Positions 1,962-18,021 of a stretch of 64,000 nucleotides of DNA are shown here, piece by piece. Both the position numbers and the translations under genes were made by a program. A model generated the notes under the pieces. The model had not been told where the DNA came from. It was given only the letters and a program-made list of their open reading frames with translations, and did not search any database. Location of the stretch: positions 1 through 64,000 of the forward strand of contig JACRFB010000063.1 of NCBI GenBank assembly GCA_016218045.1, read 5' to 3'. The stretch is from Ignavibacteriota bacterium. GTDB lineage: Bacteria > Bacteroidota > Ignavibacteria > SZUA-365. The first letter of the stretch is position 1. Each line of letters begins with the position of its first letter.

Positions 1962-4900
1962 CTATCTCCTCGAAAGCGGCAACTCCCGCGCGGCGTCGGT
2001 GATCGCGCCGATCTTGCTGGCGTAACTCGTGCGCGCCGCGATGTCGTCGTCGGTCACGTAATGCACGTCGAGCAGACCGCTGTTCTTGTAGCCGGTGCGC
2101 AGGTAATTCATCTCGGCCAAGCACAGACTCCACCCGTTCAACCACAACGCCAGTTGTGCGCGCGCCTCGAGATCACCACCCACGTGGAAAATGAGATCGA
2201 TGTCGCTGCCCGGACCCGCGCTGCCGTTCTTCGTGCTTCCGAAGACGTAGGCAGACTTCACATCAAATCGGCGCGGATCAATCTGCGCGGCGATGCGTTC
2301 GGCCATGCGCAGGCGCCAGCTCCAGTGGTCCTCGATCTCGTGCACTTCTTCCTCGGTGTTCTCGGCGTACACGGCGCGGTTCTTGCGCACCGGTGTCAGA
2401 TAGCCCATCGCCTCCTCGAGGTCGGCGTTCATCAGCACTCGCATCACCATGCCGTCGGTGCAGCGCGGAACGTCGATGACACGAATCGTGTCCTTGAGGT
2501 GTTCGAACTCCGGCAGCAGTTCCGCCAGCACATTCGGCATGTGATGCAGGAAACCCTCGTTGAAAATCACGCCCGGATCGTCGGGATACAGCGGCAGATA
2601 GCGTATCGAGGCCTCGACAAGATCCTGGAAAAAGTGTGTGCCGAAGGAGAGGTCGGGTACGTAGTTGCCGGTCTTGCGCGCGATTTCGATGAGCACGGCG
2701 GTGTTGTTGATGTCGGAGTACGACACGGCCACGCCCAGCTTGATATCGCCGCGGCTGCCCCAGCGGCCCGGACCCATCAGAATGAACTGCCGCTTCGGCA
2801 GAAGATTGTTCAGCCGCCCGATGGCGCGCCCCACTTCGAGCAGATCGTTTCTGTCGGGCAGATACGAGTACTGCTGCGGATCCACGTACACGATGTGTGT
2901 GATGTCGGGCACCACGCCGTTCGAGATGAAACGGTTGGCCGTGAAAATCTTCCGGTGATTCGACACGTCGCGCGGTATCGAGGCCGGCGCGCTTCCGCGT
3001 GTGAAACTCTGCGGCCTGCACTGGAGCAGATACAGCACGTCGCCGTCGCTCGCGAATTCGATGTCGACCGGCGTGTCGATGCTCTCCTGCAGCAAGCGGA
3101 CGATGGCGTGCAACTGTTTCACAAAATTCGAGCGCGTGATCAGTCCGTCGAACGTCACCGCCGCGGTCTCGCGCTCGAAGTCGATGTGCAGACCCACCGG
3201 CTGCCGCATGTGATCCTCTTCGTACAGCGACACGATGCGATGGACCTGCGGGAACTCGTTGCCGTACTCGCGCAGGAATTCCTGCACGTCCACGGTCTCG
3301 AAGCTGCACGTATCCAGATTGATGACGTCCATCTTCTTGGGGGAATACCGCAGCATCTCCTCGGGCGACACGTTCACGCGCAGATTCGGCTGGCCCGGCG
3401 CGATGAGGATGGGGAAGTCGTCGCTCAGCCGGTCCACCGCGCGTGTGCCGAGTCCGGGCACCATGCGGATGAGTCCGTCCTCGCGCCGTATGCGCGGCGA
3501 CCAGCGGAATTCGTTGTTGCTGAACGCCACGCCCGCGAAGGCGGGCAGGAAGTACTTGCCGACCTGTGTGCCGACAACCTCCTGAATCATGATGCCCATC
3601 TCCTCGTGGAAGTCGAGCAGTCCGCGTTCGGATCGGTATTCGATGGGATCGGGTCCGAATATCGACGCGTACACCTCGGCGATGGCGTCCATCAGCGCCG
3701 CGAGGCGTTCGCCCTTGCTCCCCGCGTTCGCGAGGAAGAGACTCTTGTACTTGCCCGAAAACGCGGCGCTCATGCTGTCCTCGAGCAGACTCGAACTGCG
3801 CACGATGATGGGGCGGTCGCCGAGATCGTCGAGCGCCATCGACAGGCCCTTGATGATCTCGGTGGTGAAGTACGAGTTCTTGAACACCTGCACGAGGTGC
3901 GGATATTCGTCGCGCACCTGGTCGATGTCGAGGTACTTCTGATTGAACACTTCCTCGAGATTGTTGTAGTGGATGAAGTTCAGGATGCCGTCGGAGACGA
4001 CGTACCAGGTCTTCGGAGTGCGCACGTTTTCGAGCAGGGGATTTTGTCCCGCGGCCCGGCGCACGATCTGTGTCGCGAGAAAAAGTCCCGCGCTTTTGCC
4101 GCCCAGTTTGCCGTGGCTCTTCTGGTGGTAGATGATGCGGTGCAGGAGGTCGTAGAAGTCGCGTATCTCGATGTACTTCTTCGCGATGTTGATGAAGCTG
4201 AGCTGGTCGTTGAAGAAGCGCCGAATCAACGACACGCGCAGCACCTTGTCGGTGGAGGGTGAAAGCTCGAGTCCCGACGGGAACAGATGGTAATAGCGCC
4301 CGAGTGCATCCGATATTTCGGCCAGCGAGGTGTCGAGACTTTCGACGGCATTCACGAGGAAGGCGGCCTTGTCGTCCTTGATCCACTTCTGGATGTTCAT
4401 CAGGATGTCGTCATCGCTCAGGTAATTCGAGGCGATGATGAAGATCTCGTCGCTCGTGATGATGAAGTTGTGCAGTTCCTCGCGCTGCTGCGGCTTGTTG
4501 GTGCCGAAGGCGGGATCGTCGCCGGGCTGTTCGGTCACGTTGAAACTCTGCAGCAGCGTCGATGCCTCCTTGATGCCGATGCGGCAGAGGTGGTTCAGCA
4601 TGCGCCGCGAAATGCGTGTGTACAGACTCTGGTCGGTCTTGCGCAGTACGCCCAGCACAACCATCCATTCGCTGCGCTCCTTGCCAGTGCGTTCCGTGCG
4701 GAAGGTCTCCCACTCGAAGAACACGTTTTTCAGGCGCTGATGCAGGATAAAATGCGCGATGCGTTCCGCGATGGAGTTGAGCAGCCGGCGCTCCTCCTTG
4801 AGGAAGGGACCCTCGTCGGCGGGTGGAAGCTCCTTTGTGTAGTACACTTCCACAACGCCCTCCACGGCGTCCTGCACGCTGATATCCGAGCGCTGCAGCC

Positions 4901-5141
4901 AGCGTGTCACGGCGAAGTTTTCGCTGGTGAACACCGCCTCGCCGTAGCGGATGCGCGCGCAGCAGAGGTCCGGATACTGCCATCCCTCGGGTATCGCGCG
5001 CGCCACCTCGACGAGCACGTCCTCCAGTGTCTCGTCGCGCGCGGTGAGAAGTTCCTCGATGCCGTAGAGGCAGCTCAACTCCTTTGCTCGTTCGCCGAGG
5101 ACGGTGAGCAGATCGTTGATGTCCTTGCTCTGATGTTTCAT
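1962..5141 (-). CDS. PEP/pyruvate-binding domain protein with C-terminal nucleotidyltransferase domain
   Basis: A 1059-residue cytoplasmic protein. Residues about 1-140 form a sensor-like N-terminal region (NELSCLYG-type, here KELSCLYGIEELL) known from histidine kinases of other phyla. A pyruvate phosphate dikinase-type ATP-grasp region follows (KLGGKSAGL near 344, VRSSSLLEDS near 449, LLQCRPQ near 709). Then comes a module with MGPGRWGS near 792 and GTHFFQDL. Near 970 a nucleotidyltransferase signature is seen (FGSTKNGSAGPGSDIDL). The phosphohistidine swivelling domain of true PEP synthases is not visible. I chose the ATG giving MKHQSKD because homology-like sequence begins there. A TTG 66 bp upstream has a better Shine-Dalgarno (GGAGGG) but would add an Arg/Pro-rich stretch. 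It is divergent from the glutamate dehydrogenase gene 145 bp away. Its substrate is unknown. Confidence 0.85.
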   Translation of the reverse strand: MKHQSKDINDLLTVLGERAKELSCLYGIEELLTARDETLEDVLVEVARAIPEGWQYPDLCCARIRYGEAVFTSENFAVTRWLQRSDISVQDAVEGVVEVYYTKELPPADEGPFLKEERRLLNSIAERIAHFILHQRLKNVFFEWETFRTERTGKERSEWMVVLGVLRKTDQSLYTRISRRMLNHLCRIGIKEASTLLQSFNVTEQPGDDPAFGTNKPQQREELHNFIITSDEIFIIASNYLSDDDILMNIQKWIKDDKAAFLVNAVESLDTSLAEISDALGRYYHLFPSGLELSPSTDKVLRVSLIRRFFNDQLSFINIAKKYIEIRDFYDLLHRIIYHQKSHGKLGGKSAGLFLATQIVRRAAGQNPLLENVRTPKTWYVVSDGILNFIHYNNLEEVFNQKYLDIDQVRDEYPHLVQVFKNSYFTTEIIKGLSMALDDLGDRPIIVRSSSLLEDSMSAAFSGKYKSLFLANAGSKGERLAALMDAIAEVYASIFGPDPIEYRSERGLLDFHEEMGIMIQEVVGTQVGKYFLPAFAGVAFSNNEFRWSPRIRREDGLIRMVPGLGTRAVDRLSDDFPILIAPGQPNLRVNVSPEEMLRYSPKKMDVINLDTCSFETVDVQEFLREYGNEFPQVHRIVSLYEEDHMRQPVGLHIDFERETAAVTFDGLITRSNFVKQLHAIVRLLQESIDTPVDIEFASDGDVLYLLQCRPQSFTRGSAPASIPRDVSNHRKIFTANRFISNGVVPDITHIVYVDPQQYSYLPDRNDLLEVGRAIGRLNNLLPKRQFILMGPGRWGSRGDIKLGVAVSYSDINNTAVLIEIARKTGNYVPDLSFGTHFFQDLVEASIRYLPLYPDDPGVIFNEGFLHHMPNVLAELLPEFEHLKDTIRVIDVPRCTDGMVMRVLMNADLEEAMGYLTPVRKNRAVYAENTEEEVHEIEDHWSWRLRMAERIAAQIDPRRFDVKSAYVFGSTKNGSAGPGSDIDLIFHVGGDLEARAQLALWLNGWSLCLAEMNYLRTGYKNSGLLDVHYVTDDDIAARTSYASKIGAITDAARELPLSRR

Positions 5142-5224
5142 GGGATGGAGGCGCTGCGGTGGGTCGCGAAGGGGATGGTGCGGGAAATTACGTCTTCGGC
5201 GCGTCAAATGACACCCTCCGGGGC

Positions 5225-5286: not shown

Positions 5287-6573
5287 ATGGCCCAAGAATC
5301 GTTTAATCCGTTCCGCATGGCGCAGCAGCAATTCGACAGCATCGCCGAAAAACTCTCGCTCGACGATGCCACGCGCGAGCTGCTCCGCACCCCCGATCGT
5401 GAATTCCATTTCAATATTCCCATCCGTATGGACGACGGCAGTTACCGCGTGTTCCGCGGTTTCCGCGTGCAGCACAACGACGCGCGCGGTCCGAGCAAGG
5501 GCGGCATCCGTTTCCATCCGCACGAGACCATCGACACCGTGCGCGCCCTCGCGATGTGGATGACGTGGAAGACCGCGGTGGTCGACATCCCGCTCGGCGG
5601 CGGGAAGGGCGGCGTGATCTGCGATCCGCACAATCTCTCCATGCGCGAGCAGGAGGCACTGTGCCGCGGCTGGGTGCGCAAGATCGTCGAGTATATCGGC
5701 GCGTATCAGGACGTGCCCGCGCCGGATGTCATGACATCGTCGCAGCACATGGTGTGGATGCTCGACGAGTACGAGCACATCACAGGCCGCAAGGAGCCGG
5801 GTTTTATCACCGGCAAGCCGGTCGGTCTCGGCGGCTCGCTCGGACGCACGGAAGCCACGGGATACGGTCTTGTGTACACGCTGCGCGAAGCCATGCGCGA
5901 GCGCGACCTCGCCATCGCGGGTTCCACCGCCAGCGTGCAGGGCTTCGGCAATGTGGCGCAGTACGCGATCGAGCTGTTTATCTCGTACGGCGGCAAGGTC
6001 ATCGCGGTGTCGTGCTGGGATCAGCGCGAGCAGCGCGCCTTCACGTTCCGCCGCAAGGACGGCATCGATCTGCAGGTGCTGCGCGGTATCACGAACAAGT
6101 TCGGCGAGATCGACCGCGGCAAGGCGCCGGAACTCGGCTTTGATGTGCTGGACGGCGACGCCTGGCTCGAACAGGATGCCGATGTGTTGATTCCCGCGGC
6201 GCTCGAGAATCAGATCAACGCGCTCAATGTCGACAAGATCCGCCCCTCGGTGCAGCTCATCGCCGAAGGCGCCAACGGTCCGACGACGCCCGAGGCCGAC
6301 GGGGTGCTGCACAAGCGCGGCGTGGTGATTGTGCCCGATTTCCTCGCAAACGCGGGCGGCGTGACCTGCAGCTATTTCGAGCAGGTGCAGAGCAACATGA
6401 ACTATTACTGGACGCGCGACGAGGTGCTCAGCAAACTCGATTCGAAGATGACCGACGCCTACGACGCCGTGGCCGACATCGCGCGCAAGCGCCGGCTCTC
6501 GCTGCGCGACGCCGCCTACATGATCGCCATCTCGCGCGTCGCCGAGGCGTGCAAGCTGCGCGGCTGGGTGTAG
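5287..6573 (+). CDS. Glu/Leu/Phe/Val-type glutamate dehydrogenase (short form)
   Basis: A 428-residue enzyme that would interconvert glutamate with 2-oxoglutarate and ammonia. The substrate-binding and catalytic part is intact: RGPSKGGIRFHP near 67-78, GGGKGG at 104-109 with the active-site lysine, and PAPDV at 145-149. The nucleotide-binding Rossmann loop is GFGNVA at 219-224. Length and motifs fit the roughly 420-residue hexameric subfamily common in archaea and many bacteria, which is distinct from the second dehydrogenase at 13405-14748. Coenzyme preference (NAD or NADP) cannot be read with certainty. An AAAGGA ribosome site precedes the ATG. The gene is divergent from the PEP-binding protein on its left. 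Confidence 0.93.
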   Translation: MAQESFNPFRMAQQQFDSIAEKLSLDDATRELLRTPDREFHFNIPIRMDDGSYRVFRGFRVQHNDARGPSKGGIRFHPHETIDTVRALAMWMTWKTAVVDIPLGGGKGGVICDPHNLSMREQEALCRGWVRKIVEYIGAYQDVPAPDVMTSSQHMVWMLDEYEHITGRKEPGFITGKPVGLGGSLGRTEATGYGLVYTLREAMRERDLAIAGSTASVQGFGNVAQYAIELFISYGGKVIAVSCWDQREQRAFTFRRKDGIDLQVLRGITNKFGEIDRGKAPELGFDVLDGDAWLEQDADVLIPAALENQINALNVDKIRPSVQLIAEGANGPTTPEADGVLHKRGVVIVPDFLANAGGVTCSYFEQVQSNMNYYWTRDEVLSKLDSKMTDAYDAVADIARKRRLSLRDAAYMIAISRVAEACKLRGWV

Positions 6574-9130: not shown

Positions 9131-12100
9131 ATGAAAGACTCTCGAATAAAACGCGACGAAGTCACCGATGTCATCGGGCTGTACGGCGTCAAACCGGGTT
9201 CGGGCCAGGCGATGGAGTTCCGTGATCTGATGCGGTATCGGATCACGAACATACTGCTCGTCTCGAGTCTCTACGATTATTACACGATTGTGGAGGACGG
9301 TCAGCTCTCCGAGGCGATCTTCAGCGAGTTTCTCGAACTCAATCTGCACTACGCCCCGCATCTCACGCGTGTCAATTCCGGCGAGGCCGCGCTGGCCGCG
9401 CTGCAGGCGCAGGAGTACGATCTTGTCATCACCATGCTGCGCCTCGGCGACATGGATCTGTCGTCGTTCTGCGAGGCCGTGCGCGCCACATATCCCGAAC
9501 TGCCTGTCGTGCTGCTCGCGTATCAGTCGCGCGAACTTCAGCTTTCGCTTGCACAGGAGAATCTCGCCTTGCTCGACAAGGTGTTCATCTGGATGGGCGA
9601 CCGCCGCATCTTTCTCGCCATCATCAAACTCATCGAGGATATGCGCAACGCGGCCATCGACTGCCTGCAGTTCGGCGTCCGCACCATTCTTCTGCTCGAG
9701 GATTCGCCCGCGTTTTACTCCTCCTATCTCCCGCTGATCTATACCGAGCTGATCAAGCAGGGACACTCGCTCATCGAGGAGGGGAAAAACTTTGCGGACC
9801 GCTACATGCGCCAGAAGGCGCGCCCGAAAATCCTTCACGCGGTGTCGTACGAGGAGGCCTGCGCCTATTACGAGAAATACCGCGGCACGCTGCTCGGTGT
9901 GATCACCGACATGCGCGTGCTGATGGAGGGGCGCGAGGCGGGCGACGCGGGGCTGCGCTTCGCGCGCATGGTGCTGCAGGACAATCCCGAGCTGCCCGTG
10001 CTTGTGCAGTCGTCGGAAACGCAGCACCTGCCCGAAATCGAGGCGGGCAATATCGCGTTTGTGAACAAGAACTCGCGCTCGCTGCTGCAGGAGGTCGGAG
10101 AATTCATCAAACAGAACTTCGGCTTCGGCGACTTTGTCTTCCAGCTTCCCGACGGCTCCGAGGTGGCCCGCGCGCGCAATCTGCGCGAGCTGCGCGACCG
10201 CCTGCGCGACGTGCCCGAGGAGGCCCTCATGCACCATGCCTCGCGGGATCACTTCTCGAACTGGTTGCTCGCGCGCACACACTTCACACTCGCGCGTCGT
10301 ATCAAGCCCGTGAAGATCAGCCACTTCGCGAGCGCTGCCGATCTGCGCGCCTACCTCATTGCCGAGGTGTCGCTGCAGATACAGGTCGATCAGCAGGGGG
10401 TCATCTCCGATTTTGCGCGCGGCGAATTCGACATCGATGCCGTGGTGTCGCGTATCGGCGGCGGTTCGCTCGGCGGCAAGGCACGCGGACTCGCCTTTGT
10501 CGACAGCGTGCTGAAAAAATATATGGAGCCGGACTATTTCCCGGGCGTGCACATCTCGATTCCGCGCACCATCGTGCTCGGCACCGATGTGTTCTCGCAG
10601 TTTGTCGCACAGAACGATCTGCTTCCACTCGCCTTCGAAAATGTGTCGGACGAGCAGGTGGTACGCGCGTTCCTGCATGCGGATCTGCCCCCGACGGTGC
10701 TGGGCGATCTGCGCGCCATCCTGCAAAAGGCCCGCTTCCCGCTGGCGGTGCGCTCGTCGTCGCTGCTCGAGGACGCGCTCTATCAGCCCTTTGCCGGCAT
10801 CTACGCGACGGTGATGATCCCGAACAGCAATCCCGACTTCGCCGTGCGCTTCCACAACCTGACGCAGGCGGTGAAATTTGTGTTTGCATCCACGTGGTTC
10901 CGCGGTGCAAAGAATTACATCGAGGCAACGGGCAACCGCATCGAGGAAGAAAAGATGGCCGTGATTGTGCAGGAGATGGTCGGCACAAAACACGACCGGT
11001 ATTTCTATCCGCACATCTCGGGCGTCGCGCGCTCGTTCAACTACTATCCCTTAGGCAAGGCGAAACAGAAGGACGGTGTGGTGAATCTCGCCCTTGGTCT
11101 CGGCAAGACCATTGTCGACAACGGTGTGAGTCTGCAGTTCTGCCCCGTGTATCCCACGGTGCATCCGCAGTTCGGCACCACGAAGGATCTGTTTCAGAAT
11201 TCGCAGACGATGTTCTGGGCGGTCGATCTGCGTTCGGATATCGTCCGAAAATATCCGACCGAGGACGAGTACATGGTGCGGCTCAACATTCAGGACGCCG
11301 AGCGGCACGGAGCGCTGACACATATCGCGTCCACGTATTCGGCCGAGAACGACTGCATGTACGAGGGTGTGTTCCGCAAGGGTCCGCGTGTCATCAACTT
11401 TGCGCCGCTGCTCAAGTCGCGCGTGATGCCGCTCACCGATGTGGTGCGTATGCTGGTGTCGATCTGCGAGACGGCGATGAACTGTCCGGTGGAGATGGAG
11501 TTTGCCGTGCGGCTCGGCGAAAAGGAGGCCATGCCCGCGCAGTTCAGTTTCCTGCAGGTGCGGCCGATGGTGAAGCAGGAGGGTGGTCCGGCAGTCGATC
11601 TGTCGTCGCTTGATCAGGGCGATGTGCTGCTGCGCACCACGCAGGCGCTGGGCAACGGCGTGCACACGGTGCGCGACGTGGTGTACGTCAAACCGGAGGT
11701 GTTCGACGCGATGCGCACGCGCGAGATGGTGAAGGAGATCGCCGCGTTGAACGCGCAGCTTGTGCGTGAACAGCGGCCGTACCTGCTCATCGGTCCGGGC
11801 CGCTGGGGTTCGTCCGATCCGTCGCTCGGCATACCGGTAAAATTCCCCGACATCTCCGGCGCGCGCGCGATCGTGGAGACCTCGCTGCCGAACATGATCA
11901 TCGATCCCTCGCAGGGTTCACACTTCTTCCAGAATCTCACGTCGTTCCACATCATGTATTTCACGCTGCGCCACTACACGGCGGGGCAGGAGATCGACTG
12001 GGCCTGGCTCGATGCCGCCGCCGCGGAAACGGAGGCGCGTTTCACGCGCCACGTGCGCCTCGACGACGACCTCCGCATTCTTGTGGACGGCCGCAGCGGC

Positions 12101-12133
12101 GAAGGTGTGGTGATGAAAAAGAGCCGCGGCTGA
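9131..12133 (+). CDS. Tandem receiver-like / PEP-pyruvate-binding domain protein
   Basis: A 1000-residue soluble protein. Two response-regulator receiver-like folds come first. The first (about 35-165) has ILLVSS and DLVITMLRLGD, where the usual phospho-Asp is Thr. The second (about 178-330) has ILLLEDSP and GVITDMRV and keeps acidic residues and an Asp. A dikinase-type ATP-grasp region follows: IGGGSLGGKARGLAF near 442, VRSSSLLED near 538, SFLQVRPM near 805. The C-terminal module has LLIGPGRWGSSDPS near 884 and GSHFFQNLTSF near 928. No phosphohistidine domain is visible, so classical PEP synthase activity is not supported. It is a close paralogue of 15004-18021 and shares the ATP-grasp and GPGRWGS parts with 1962-5141. 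A role as a signal-controlled nucleotide- or PEP-binding enzyme is inference. Confidence 0.88.
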   Translation: MKDSRIKRDEVTDVIGLYGVKPGSGQAMEFRDLMRYRITNILLVSSLYDYYTIVEDGQLSEAIFSEFLELNLHYAPHLTRVNSGEAALAALQAQEYDLVITMLRLGDMDLSSFCEAVRATYPELPVVLLAYQSRELQLSLAQENLALLDKVFIWMGDRRIFLAIIKLIEDMRNAAIDCLQFGVRTILLLEDSPAFYSSYLPLIYTELIKQGHSLIEEGKNFADRYMRQKARPKILHAVSYEEACAYYEKYRGTLLGVITDMRVLMEGREAGDAGLRFARMVLQDNPELPVLVQSSETQHLPEIEAGNIAFVNKNSRSLLQEVGEFIKQNFGFGDFVFQLPDGSEVARARNLRELRDRLRDVPEEALMHHASRDHFSNWLLARTHFTLARRIKPVKISHFASAADLRAYLIAEVSLQIQVDQQGVISDFARGEFDIDAVVSRIGGGSLGGKARGLAFVDSVLKKYMEPDYFPGVHISIPRTIVLGTDVFSQFVAQNDLLPLAFENVSDEQVVRAFLHADLPPTVLGDLRAILQKARFPLAVRSSSLLEDALYQPFAGIYATVMIPNSNPDFAVRFHNLTQAVKFVFASTWFRGAKNYIEATGNRIEEEKMAVIVQEMVGTKHDRYFYPHISGVARSFNYYPLGKAKQKDGVVNLALGLGKTIVDNGVSLQFCPVYPTVHPQFGTTKDLFQNSQTMFWAVDLRSDIVRKYPTEDEYMVRLNIQDAERHGALTHIASTYSAENDCMYEGVFRKGPRVINFAPLLKSRVMPLTDVVRMLVSICETAMNCPVEMEFAVRLGEKEAMPAQFSFLQVRPMVKQEGGPAVDLSSLDQGDVLLRTTQALGNGVHTVRDVVYVKPEVFDAMRTREMVKEIAALNAQLVREQRPYLLIGPGRWGSSDPSLGIPVKFPDISGARAIVETSLPNMIIDPSQGSHFFQNLTSFHIMYFTLRHYTAGQEIDWAWLDAAAAETEARFTRHVRLDDDLRILVDGRSGEGVVMKKSRG

Positions 12134-13404: not shown

Positions 13405-14877
<1,473 letters not shown>

Positions 14878-14886
14878 TTAGGGGTA

Positions 14887-14919
14887 TTTGTGTCGCTGCG
14901 CGGGCGAAGCGTAAATTGC
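14887..14919 (+). promoter_or_regulatory. Candidate Bacteroidota-type promoter of the third PEP-binding gene
   Basis: TTTG at 14887-14890, 21 bp, then TAAATTGC at 14912-14919. It lies in the 255-bp divergent gap, 84 bp before the chosen start. Confidence 0.3.
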
Positions 14920-15003
14920 GGCACAACCACGCGCCTCCGCGCATTTCCTCCCGACGATATTCCCGCGCACGACGGCCACGGCCGGCAGGCACAGGGCGAC
15001 ACC

Positions 15004-18000
15004 ATGAAACGCGAACTGCTCAAACGCGACGAACTCAAGGATGTGATCCTCGATGCGGGCATCCCCTCGCATTTCGTCGATACACACGAACTGGACTTCA
15101 AGGATCTGATGCGCGTGCGCATCAACAACATCCTGCTTGTCTCCAGCCGCTACGATTTTTACACGCTCGTCGACGACGGCCAGCTCACCGAGGCCATCAT
15201 CAGCGAGTACCTCGATCTCAACCTGCATTACGCGCCGCTCATCACGCGCGTGTATTCGGGCGAGGCGGCGCTCGACGCGCTGCGCAGGCAGCCCTTCGAC
15301 CTCGTGATCACGATGCAGCGCCTCGGCGACATGCGGCTGCGCACCTTCTGCGTCGAGGCGCGCAAGATCGCGCCAGATCTGACCCTCGTGCTGCTCGCGT
15401 ATCAGTCGCGCGAATTCCAGATGCTGCTCGAGCGCGACAACCTCTCGCTCTTCGACCGCACCTTCATCTGGTCGGGCGACCGCAAGCTCTTCCTCGCGCT
15501 GATCAAGGTGTTCGAGGATCTCGAGAACGCGCCCATCGACTGCCTCGACTTCGGCGTCCGGGCCATGATCCTTGTCGAGGACTCGCCGATGTTTTATTCC
15601 TCGTACATGCCGCTGATCTACACCGAAATGATACAGCAGGGACAGAACCTTATCGAGGAGGGCAAGAACTTCGCCGACAAGCTGCTGCGGCAGCGCGCGC
15701 GCCCGAAAATCCTGCATGCGACCACCTACGAGGAGGCGTGGGACTTCTTCAAAAAATACCGCGGCGTGCTGCTGGGCATCGTCACCGACCTGAAGTTCCG
15801 CATCGGCGATGAACTGAAGGAGAACGCGGGCCTCACCTTCATCGAACGCGTGCGCGCCGAGATGAAGGATCTGCCGATACTTGTGCAGTCGGCGCAGGTC
15901 GAGCTGCAGGAAAGCGTCGAGGCGCAGAACTGCACCTTCGTCGACAAGTACAGCCGCACGCTGCTGCAGGAGGTGCGGGAGTTCATGAAACAGAACTTCG
16001 GTTTCGGGGAGTTCATCTTCCGCCTGCCCGACGGCACCGAGGTCGAGCGCGCGCGCAACATCCGCGAACTGCGCCGCAAGCTGCGCGAGGTGCCCGATTC
16101 CTGCCTGCTGTATCACGCCTCGAACAATCACTTCTCGAACTGGCTCATGGCGCGCACTCGCTTCCAGCTCGCCGAGATGCTGAAGCCGATCAAGATCACG
16201 CAGTTCGCCGATCCCGAGGAACTGCGCGCCTACATGATCGATCAGATCGACCAGCTCGTGATCCACGACAACCGCGGTATCATCTCCGATTTCTCGCGCG
16301 ACGAGTACGATCCGCACGCGAAGTTCCAGCGCATCGGCGGCGGATCGCTGGGCGGCAAGGCCCGCGGCCTCGCCTTCATCGACACGATCTTTAAAACCTA
16401 TCTCAAACCCGAGTACTTCCCGCGCGTGCGCATCGCGATTCCGAAAACATACGTGATATGCACCGACGTGTTCACCGAGTTCATGGAGATGAACGGGCTG
16501 CTGCCCATCGCGGTGCAGAATATTTCGGACGAGGAAATCGTCGATCATTTCCTGCATGCAAAATTTCCACGCGAGATCGAGGAGGATCTGCGCCTCATCA
16601 TCAGCGCCAACCACTATCCGCTTGCGGTGCGCTCGTCGTCGCTGCTCGAGGACACGCTGTACCAGCCCTTCGCGGGAATCTATTCCACGTTGATGCTGCC
16701 CAACAGCAACCGCAATCCCGAGGTGCGCTATCAGCGCCTCGTGCAGGCCATCAAGTTCGTCTTCGCCTCCACCTACTTCCGCGGCGCGAAAAACTATATC
16801 GAGGCCACGGGCCACCGCATGGAGGAGGAGAAGATGGCCGTGGTGATACAGCAGATCACCGGCAAACGCTACGACCACTTTTTCTACCCGCACTTCTCGG
16901 GTGTGGCCCGCTCGTACAACTACTACCCGTTCGGCGACGCGAAACAGGACGACGGCATCGTGAACCTCGCCGTCGGTCTCGGCAAGACCATCGTCGACGG
17001 GGGATTGAGCGTCACCTACTGCCCCGAGTATCCCGCGGTGCTGCCGCAGTTCATGTCGCAGAAGGACTACTTCAACAACTCGCAGCGCCGTTTCTATGCG
17101 CTGGATCTCGGCGGCGATATCGTCATGCGCCATCCTGTGGAGGACCAGAACCTCGTCTCTGTCGACATCAAGGTGGCCGAGCGGCACAACTCGCTGCGTT
17201 TCCTCGCCTCGACGTATGATTTCCAGAACGACGCGCTGTACGAGGGCACCTTCCGCACCGGACACCGCGTGATCAACTTCGCGCCGCTGCTGCAGTCCGA
17301 CATCGTGCCCGTCAACAAAGTTGTGCGCCTGCTGCTGCGACTCTGCGAGACGGCGATGAACTGTCCGGTGGAGATAGAATTCGCGGGCACGCTCGACGAC
17401 GAGAGCGGCCTGCCTGCGGACTTCAGCTTCCTGCAGGTGCGGCCCATGGTCAAGGAGGAAGGATTCTTCGAGACGGAAGCGCGCGCGGTGGATGCCGCGG
17501 ACCTGCTTCTGCAGAGCGACAAGGCCCTCGGCAACGGCGTGTCGCGGCTCAGCGACATCGTGTTCGTGAAACCCGATGTGTTCGATCACGCGAAGACCCG
17601 CGACATGGCCGTCGAGATCGACGCCATGAACCGCGCGCTCACCGACGAAGGCCGGCAGTATCTGCTCATCGGACCCGGCCGCTGGGGCTCCAGCGATCCC
17701 TGGCTCGGCATTCCCGTCAAGTTCACCAACATCTCCTCGGCGCGCGCCATCGTCGAGAATTCCCTGCCGAACATGATTCCGGATCCCTCGCAGGGCTCGC
17801 ATTTCTTTCAGAATCTCACGTCCTTCCGCATCGCGTACTTCACACTTCGGCATTACAAGGAATCGGATGTGATAGACTGGGACTGGCTCAACGGACTCGA
17901 GACCGTCGCGGAATCGACCTTCGTCAAACACGTGCGCGCCCCGCGCGACCTCGAGGTGCGCGTGAACGGGCAGACGGGGAAGGGTGTGATCGTCAAATAC

Positions 18001-18021
18001 GCGGACGTCCCCGGCGAATAA
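15004..18021 (+). CDS. Tandem receiver-like / PEP-pyruvate-binding domain protein (paralogue)
   Basis: A 1005-residue protein, collinear with 9131-12133 over its whole length. Receiver-like domain 1 has ILLVSSRYDFY and DLVITMQRLGD (Thr at the phospho-Asp site). Domain 2 has ILVEDSPMFYSSY and GIVTDLKFR, with the Asp retained. The ATP-grasp region shows IGGGSLGGKARGLAF near 443, VRSSSLLED near 543 and SFLQVRPM near 807. The C-terminus has LLIGPGRWGSSDPW near 890 and GSHFFQNLTSF. No swivelling phosphohistidine domain is seen. The ATG giving MKRELLKRDELKD is chosen because it aligns with MKDSRIKRDEVTD of the paralogue; an upstream extension of 49 codons is unlikely. The ribosome site is weak. Function is inferred only as a nucleotide- or PEP-dependent regulator or enzyme linked to the adjacent gdhA. 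Confidence 0.87.
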   Translation: MKRELLKRDELKDVILDAGIPSHFVDTHELDFKDLMRVRINNILLVSSRYDFYTLVDDGQLTEAIISEYLDLNLHYAPLITRVYSGEAALDALRRQPFDLVITMQRLGDMRLRTFCVEARKIAPDLTLVLLAYQSREFQMLLERDNLSLFDRTFIWSGDRKLFLALIKVFEDLENAPIDCLDFGVRAMILVEDSPMFYSSYMPLIYTEMIQQGQNLIEEGKNFADKLLRQRARPKILHATTYEEAWDFFKKYRGVLLGIVTDLKFRIGDELKENAGLTFIERVRAEMKDLPILVQSAQVELQESVEAQNCTFVDKYSRTLLQEVREFMKQNFGFGEFIFRLPDGTEVERARNIRELRRKLREVPDSCLLYHASNNHFSNWLMARTRFQLAEMLKPIKITQFADPEELRAYMIDQIDQLVIHDNRGIISDFSRDEYDPHAKFQRIGGGSLGGKARGLAFIDTIFKTYLKPEYFPRVRIAIPKTYVICTDVFTEFMEMNGLLPIAVQNISDEEIVDHFLHAKFPREIEEDLRLIISANHYPLAVRSSSLLEDTLYQPFAGIYSTLMLPNSNRNPEVRYQRLVQAIKFVFASTYFRGAKNYIEATGHRMEEEKMAVVIQQITGKRYDHFFYPHFSGVARSYNYYPFGDAKQDDGIVNLAVGLGKTIVDGGLSVTYCPEYPAVLPQFMSQKDYFNNSQRRFYALDLGGDIVMRHPVEDQNLVSVDIKVAERHNSLRFLASTYDFQNDALYEGTFRTGHRVINFAPLLQSDIVPVNKVVRLLLRLCETAMNCPVEIEFAGTLDDESGLPADFSFLQVRPMVKEEGFFETEARAVDAADLLLQSDKALGNGVSRLSDIVFVKPDVFDHAKTRDMAVEIDAMNRALTDEGRQYLLIGPGRWGSSDPWLGIPVKFTNISSARAIVENSLPNMIPDPSQGSHFFQNLTSFRIAYFTLRHYKESDVIDWDWLNGLETVAESTFVKHVRAPRDLEVRVNGQTGKGVIVKYADVPGE

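Follow-up and report, generated by a model that had tools for sequence, protein, structure and literature searches.

The window analysed here, a stretch of 64,000 nucleotides at the start of contig JACRFB010000063.1 of an Ignavibacteriota bacterium (assembly GCA_016218045.1), begins with about 1.9 kb of dense tandem repeats (positions 1-1960; periods of 8, 21, 66, 74, 105 and 108 bp, and others) that extend from the contig end to the stop codon of a gene on the minus strand. The product of this gene, a protein of about 1059 residues that we call PPN, combines a GAF-like domain, a helical linker, a PPDK_N ATP-grasp domain, a domain that we call X and a C-terminal nucleotidyltransferase (NTase). 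We adopted the ATG at 5141 as its start, an upstream TTG at 5207 being given in the list of open reading frames, and residues are numbered as in P0001, in which the first Met is residue 3. The features discussed below are as follows.

1962-5141, minus strand: PPN gene, in the order GAF-like, helical, PPDK_N ATP-grasp, X, NTase
4698-5099, minus strand: GAF-like sensor domain, residues ~17-150; VIA-align Z 11.8-11.9 against the GAF domains of NifA and NLH1
4113-4697, minus strand: mainly helical linker in the AlphaFold2 model, residues ~151-345, with no Pfam match
3003-4112, minus strand: PPDK_N ATP-grasp domain, residues ~346-715, from Pfam, structure comparison and alignment A1
2358-2975, minus strand: domain X, residues ~725-930, with GPGRWGSRGD and SFGTHFFQD motifs; His838 codon at 2634-2636
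1965-2330, minus strand: C-terminal NTase, residues ~940-1061; GS..DxD at 2196-2240, D1027 at 2067-2069
5287-6573, plus strand: glutamate dehydrogenase (GDH), 428 residues, divergent from PPN; nearest solved relatives are archaeal hexameric GDHs
9131-12133, plus strand: first NTase-less paralogue, 1000 residues; receiver domain (above the Pfam cut-off), PPDK_N and X
13405-14877, minus strand: second GDH, of the NADP-GdhA type; open reading frame, likely start near 14748
14857-18021, plus strand: second NTase-less paralogue; receiver-like region, DUF5752, PPDK_N and X; open reading frame, likely start near 15004

Two regions of PPN match Pfam families above cut-off, PPDK_N (residues 347-724) and NTP_transf_2 (residues 959-994), and three models (Polbeta, an MTPAP-like model and one further model) match below it. 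The AlphaFold2 model of the whole protein, built with 67 sequences, has a mean pLDDT of 81.3 and a pTM of 0.65. An earlier note on this DNA had described the N-terminus as sensor-like, and structure comparison bears this out, as the region aligns with the GAF domains of NifA (Z 11.8, 111 aligned residues, rmsd 2.0) and of A. aeolicus NLH1 (Z 11.9, 119 aligned, rmsd 2.5). The region that follows the linker scores 190 bits against PPDK_N (PF01326) and aligns with PEP synthase and rifampin phosphotransferase (Rph) at Z values of up to 24.4 (367 aligned, rmsd 3.8). K351, R450, E697, Q709 and R711, which we take to be the key catalytic residues of the PPDK_N ATP-grasp, are invariant in all 67 rows of A1, an alignment of 66 PPN relatives and the window protein. 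The label PEP/pyruvate-binding, which the note had given to this part of the protein, is a misnomer, since the ATP-grasp half alone is recognisable; PF01326 is the ATP-binding domain, and the PEP/pyruvate-binding barrel (PF02896) was absent from PPN at E<=1 in the Pfam scan.

The pol-beta-type signature that the note had placed after the dikinase region, FGSTKNGSAGPGSDIDL, corresponds to residues 969-985 of P0001 (window 2193-2243, minus strand) and lies in the same frame as PPDK_N. PF01909 (NTP_transf_2) matches PPN with 28.7 bits against a cut-off of 21 (E 1.7e-6), and matches at E<=0.01 all 31 members of alignment A3, which was made from alternate rows of A1 (34 of 67) minus three decayed sequences (L057, L059 and L074). 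The note had looked to structure prediction for the second catalytic Asp and had made its case depend on the catalytic carboxylates; D982, D984 and D1027 are all present, the third of them, D1027, in a predicted strand (1026-1031) and the DxD at the start of another (983-989). Conservation across A1 is high for both the carboxylates (D982 in 65/67 rows, D984 and D1027 each in 64/67) and the GS pair (G970 in 67/67, S971 in 64/67). Since GS, DxD and D1027 are kept in most rows of A1, the NTase of the window protein is probably active. Losses do occur among the relatives: DxD is missing from L049, L057 and L074, the third Asp from L047, L056 and L074, and GS from L058, L059 and L074, while L038, outside A1, also reads without DxD. 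Five Calditrichota sequences (L037, L044, L045, L047 and L059) keep DxD and have lost a conserved C-terminal tail, [ST]S[YF]A.KI.A.TD.A; L047 additionally lacks the third Asp and L059 the GS, possibly reflecting stepwise decay of the NTase.

By profile search, the nearest solved NTases include minimal, kanamycin, MntA-type and RNA-uridylyl transferases (best E 0.0015; entries 2rff, 6p01, 1wot and 5yep, with RNA uridylyltransferase 1 at similar E), and minimal NTases (2rff, HEPN-MNT, 7bxo) also appear among the weaker Foldseek hits (probability 0.96-0.99, E ~0.04-0.09). PPN shares the GS..DxD..D motif with such MNT/Kan-type enzymes, including the antitoxin MntA, but its NTase is fused to a dikinase-like protein and the neighbouring gene encodes a GDH, not a HEPN toxin. 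MntA itself is reported to be an adenylyltransferase that chemically modifies its partner protein (PMC7641770). Weak matches of the NTase region to PADLOC candidate systems (best E 1.3e-5), and a single one of the phosphoesterase described below (E 1.7e-8), were not taken as a sign of defence.

Between the ATP-grasp and the NTase lies domain X, whose His838 is invariant in all 67 rows of A1 and in all 74 rows of a second alignment, A2, nine of which are X domains of paralogues. No Pfam family fits X of the window protein, and the few Pfam hits obtained with other members (E 0.0094 or worse) were to unrelated families. The phosphohistidine domain PF00391 matched neither PPN nor X in Pfam. A comparison of X with PF00391-type His domains by hhalign gave a probability of 0.5%, indicating no sequence kinship; control regions (NTase, linker, GAF-like, ATP-grasp) gave 0.1-0.2% against the same His profile, which was built from 28 of the 30 loci L091-L120, leaving out L108 and L110, where the motif was not matched. 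The X profile returned only two hits by hmmsearch in the PDB (E 1.8 and 2.1), and Foldseek with X alone had no hit at E<=0.001, the best rows being those of CD38 at E ~0.07.

Modelled alone, X is predicted with high confidence (pLDDT 90.6, pTM 0.89), and His838 opens a helix that is followed by a strand. Structure comparison with this model yielded 14 chains at Z >=5 and none reaching Z 8. The top match, to an unrelated muramoyltetrapeptide carboxypeptidase, has a Z of 6.2, and there are weak matches to the His domain of Rph (756-867; Z 5.1-5.6, best rmsd 3.8 over 112 aligned residues), to that of PPDK (382-519; Z 5.0-5.3, best rmsd 4.3 over 124), to the C-terminal domain of two bacterial pyruvate kinases and to RraA. 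Most of these are 'swivelling' beta/beta/alpha folds. When the full PPN model is compared, PEP synthase and Rph align beyond the ATP-grasp into X, as judged from the ends of the aligned ranges. It is therefore plausible from the modelled fold, rather than from demonstrated homology, that X is a diverged phosphohistidine swivel carrier. Rph is reported to use an ATP-grasp together with a His swivel domain (PMC4844700). PPN resembles PEP synthase, PPDK and Rph in its PPDK_N ATP-grasp with the key residues kept and possibly in a swivel-like domain with an invariant His after it; in contrast to them, it has no detected PEP/pyruvate domain, its X escapes recognition by PF00391 and hhalign, and a GAF-like sensor and an NTase are added.

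Searches of public genomes confirmed 124 relatives of PPN, of which 80 were kept for analysis of their loci. The protein recurs at full length, with 52-66% identity, in the 66 aligned relatives, so its architecture is not a product of chance. Record titles assign relatives to Ignavibacteria, Melioribacter, Aminicenantes, Acidobacteria, Calditrichota, Zixiibacteriota and Neomarinimicrobiota, as well as to Syntrophomonas, Planctomycetes, Kiritimatiellae, Gemmatimonadetes, Spirochaetaceae and others; 60 genomes sampled from other classes of the window's phylum gave no PPN match at 1e-20. A literature search that covered few subscription journals found no description of PPN or of a PPN-GDH link. 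One Muiribacteriota record (L079:7905-12815) contains an open frame of 1636 residues in which a short PPDK_N-X form and PPN are apparently fused. Two unannotated phage records from the human gut, MT835667 and MT835811, show 27% identity to residues 338-873 of PPN (PPDK_N and X); the matches span half of the query, and the records may be bacterial DNA. Within a viral fold library, the best match to PPN was Gp139 of Bacillus phage G (E 2.2e-8).

The GDH that the note had pointed out beside PPN is a full-length enzyme (ELFV domains at 240 and 184 bits in Pfam; residues 7-428 aligned with 1gtm), and it is a conserved neighbour. A GDH more than 50% identical to it, whole or cut by a contig end, is present in 66 of the 80 relatives' loci, upstream on the same strand in 62 and divergent, as in the window, in four. 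In thirteen of the 14 loci without it, the DNA upstream of the block amounts to less than 1.4 kb; the clear exception is L018, with more than 6 kb upstream and no adjacent GDH. Ten of these 14 genomes, that of L018 included, encode a GDH of 66-71% identity elsewhere, and only GDHs of 34-36% were found in the remaining four. Among 20 genomes sampled from the same class, PPN occurs in nine (in G009 the match ends before the NTase), and exactly these nine have a GDH of >=66% identity, the other 11 reaching at most 52%. In our view, PPN is linked to GDH with near certainty. Distances between PPN sequences correlate with those between their GDHs (r 0.71 over 57 loci, a value not reached in any of 1000 permutations), a result that shared descent would also give; by domain, the correlation is 0.72 for the ATP-grasp and 0.39, the lowest compared, for the NTase. 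When 39 GDHs with intact partners were compared with 18 whose partners are decayed or tail-less (of 62 aligned, the tail pattern also excluding near-variants, among them L068 and L075), the filter retained two Leu/Ile positions and nothing else, and no modifiable residue was co-lost with NTase decay. That GDH is the substrate of the NTase is possible, though we would sooner doubt than assert it. By eye, a histidine-kinase-like gene lies near the GDH/PPN block in 10 loci (e.g. L026, 2536-4382) and a response-regulator-like gene, upstream or downstream, in eight.

NTase-less relatives of PPN also lie close to GDHs. In the window, the second paralogue, whose receiver-like N-terminus scores below the Pfam cut-off, is divergent from the second GDH, and a PPDK_N-X form of about 600 residues lies directly upstream of PPN in 19 other loci. 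Across the 20 same-class genomes, 25 of 30 PPDK_N-X genes are within 6 kb of a Glu/Leu-type dehydrogenase, and in class genomes without PPN (G031, G055, G066, G004 and G078), GDHs of 49-52% identity adjoin PPDK_N-X genes of about 1000 residues. Because the paralogues share this neighbourhood, the GDH link seems to belong to the PPDK_N-X core, with the NTase as an extra layer for one type of GDH. The likely true PPDK of this genome is encoded on another contig, C40.

A phosphoesterase of the calcineurin-like type (the single scanned copy matches PF00149) is directly convergent with PPN, at distances of -8 to 366 bp, in 32 of the 65 loci where at least 1 kb follows PPN, and is absent from the other 33. 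Within the 56 A1 loci that have at least 1 kb downstream, it accompanies 28 of 50 PPNs with intact NTase catalytic residues and none of six with broken ones (Fisher p 0.023, kinship ignored). Likewise, it accompanies 26 of 40 PPNs with the C-terminal tail motif and 2 of 16 without it (p 0.0008, kinship again ignored, using a pattern fixed after the sequences had been inspected and missing near-variants in L065 and L075). The five of 20 same-class genomes that encode it all have PPN, and it is absent from four of the nine PPN genomes. Here, the phosphoesterase is found at C53:201-1055, close to a contig end, and since the window itself begins a contig with repeats, the two genes may possibly adjoin across the repeat region.

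Taken with the domain order, the conserved catalytic residues and the conserved GDH linkage, all of which are computed observations, these data lead us to a model that we put forward tentatively, giving it slightly less than an even chance: PPN would be gated by its sensor and would regulate the neighbouring GDH covalently, combining dikinase-type phospho-transfer with nucleotidyl transfer. A metabolite would be sensed by the GAF-like domain, and the ATP-grasp would use ATP to place a phosphate on His838 of X, which would swing between sites as in dikinases. As there is no PEP/pyruvate domain after X, the acceptor is proposed to be a protein rather than pyruvate, GDH or PPN itself being the simplest candidates. 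This same target would receive a nucleotide monophosphate from the C-terminal NTase, and one of the marks might be removed by the downstream metallophosphoesterase, present in about half of the relatives.

The existence of NTase-less paralogues near GDHs means that GDH-directed activity need not reside in the NTase. In an alternative that we judge unlikely but deserving of weight, the NTase would act on the phospho-transfer part of PPN, nucleotidylating for example Thr837 or the C-terminal tail; the phospho-transfer part alone would act on GDH, and the paralogues would represent an unregulated form. Residue 837, beside His838, is Thr in 66 of 67 rows, reminiscent of plant PPDK, in which a Thr close to the catalytic His is the site of regulation, and the NTase distances track those of GDH least. 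However, the paralogues inspected retain Ser/Thr before the His despite having no NTase, and a small, fast-evolving domain lowers a correlation for other reasons too. We regard it as rather improbable that PPN instead works as a metabolic enzyme, phosphorylating or ligating a small molecule linked to glutamate/2-oxoglutarate metabolism, its adjacency to GDH reflecting a shared pathway. The known ATP-grasp relatives, PEP synthase and Rph, do act on small molecules, and three PPDK_N-X genes and two GDHs lie within 18 kb, yet signalling proteins are where GAF-like and receiver-like N-termini typically occur, Pfam recognises no acceptor-binding domain, and an NTase would be superfluous for a plain enzyme.

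The earlier note had compared PPN with GlnD and GlnE, and a divergent NTase of that kind, controlling PII or glutamine synthetase in the ordinary way, would fit the NTase fold, the nitrogen-enzyme neighbourhood and the presence in this genome of a PII with a T-loop Tyr. The kinship did not hold up: PF08335, PF03710, HD and ACT were all absent from PPN at E<=1 in Pfam. Moreover, PF08335 matches elsewhere in the genome point to separate genes of both kinds, one GlnE-like (C40:93272-95008, with two matches in a single frame) and one GlnD-like (C13:141511, with a single match), labels that we infer from the match pattern. A likely uridylyltransferase for PII is thus already present. Of the 20 class genomes, 16 have PF08335 matches, and all nine with PPN are among them. 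Given that the linkage of PPN is to GDH, we consider such control highly improbable, and with separate GlnD-like and GlnE-like genes and a PII with a T-loop Tyr here, the analogy is at most functional, an NTase presumed to act in nitrogen control, and not one of kinship or replacement.

GDH connects carbon with nitrogen metabolism, and we know of no dedicated GDH-modifying enzyme in bacteria comparable to GlnE for glutamine synthetase. SelO, a protein with a pseudokinase fold, sets a precedent for AMPylation of a GDH, but is a different protein without an NTase domain. Mammalian GDH is reported to be AMPylated by SelO and to be less active as a result (PMC12375108). Returning to PPN as a covalent regulator of GDH, its fullest form would be a nitrogen switch based on nucleotidylation, the third after GlnD-PII and GlnE-glutamine synthetase, with metabolite sensing, a phosphate carried on the His of an unnamed swivel domain, both phosphate and nucleotide marks on GDH, a dedicated phosphoesterase as eraser, a distribution over many phyla and NTase-less sisters paired with other GDH types; as a whole, we think this unlikely. 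Nonetheless, the PPN-GDH pair across many phyla is a concrete, testable candidate for GDH modification, and it provides a large set of proteins, apt to be named automatically after PEP synthase or PEP/pyruvate binding, with a likely partner. The occurrence of PPN beside GDH in many bacterial groups suggests an undescribed switch for ammonia metabolism.
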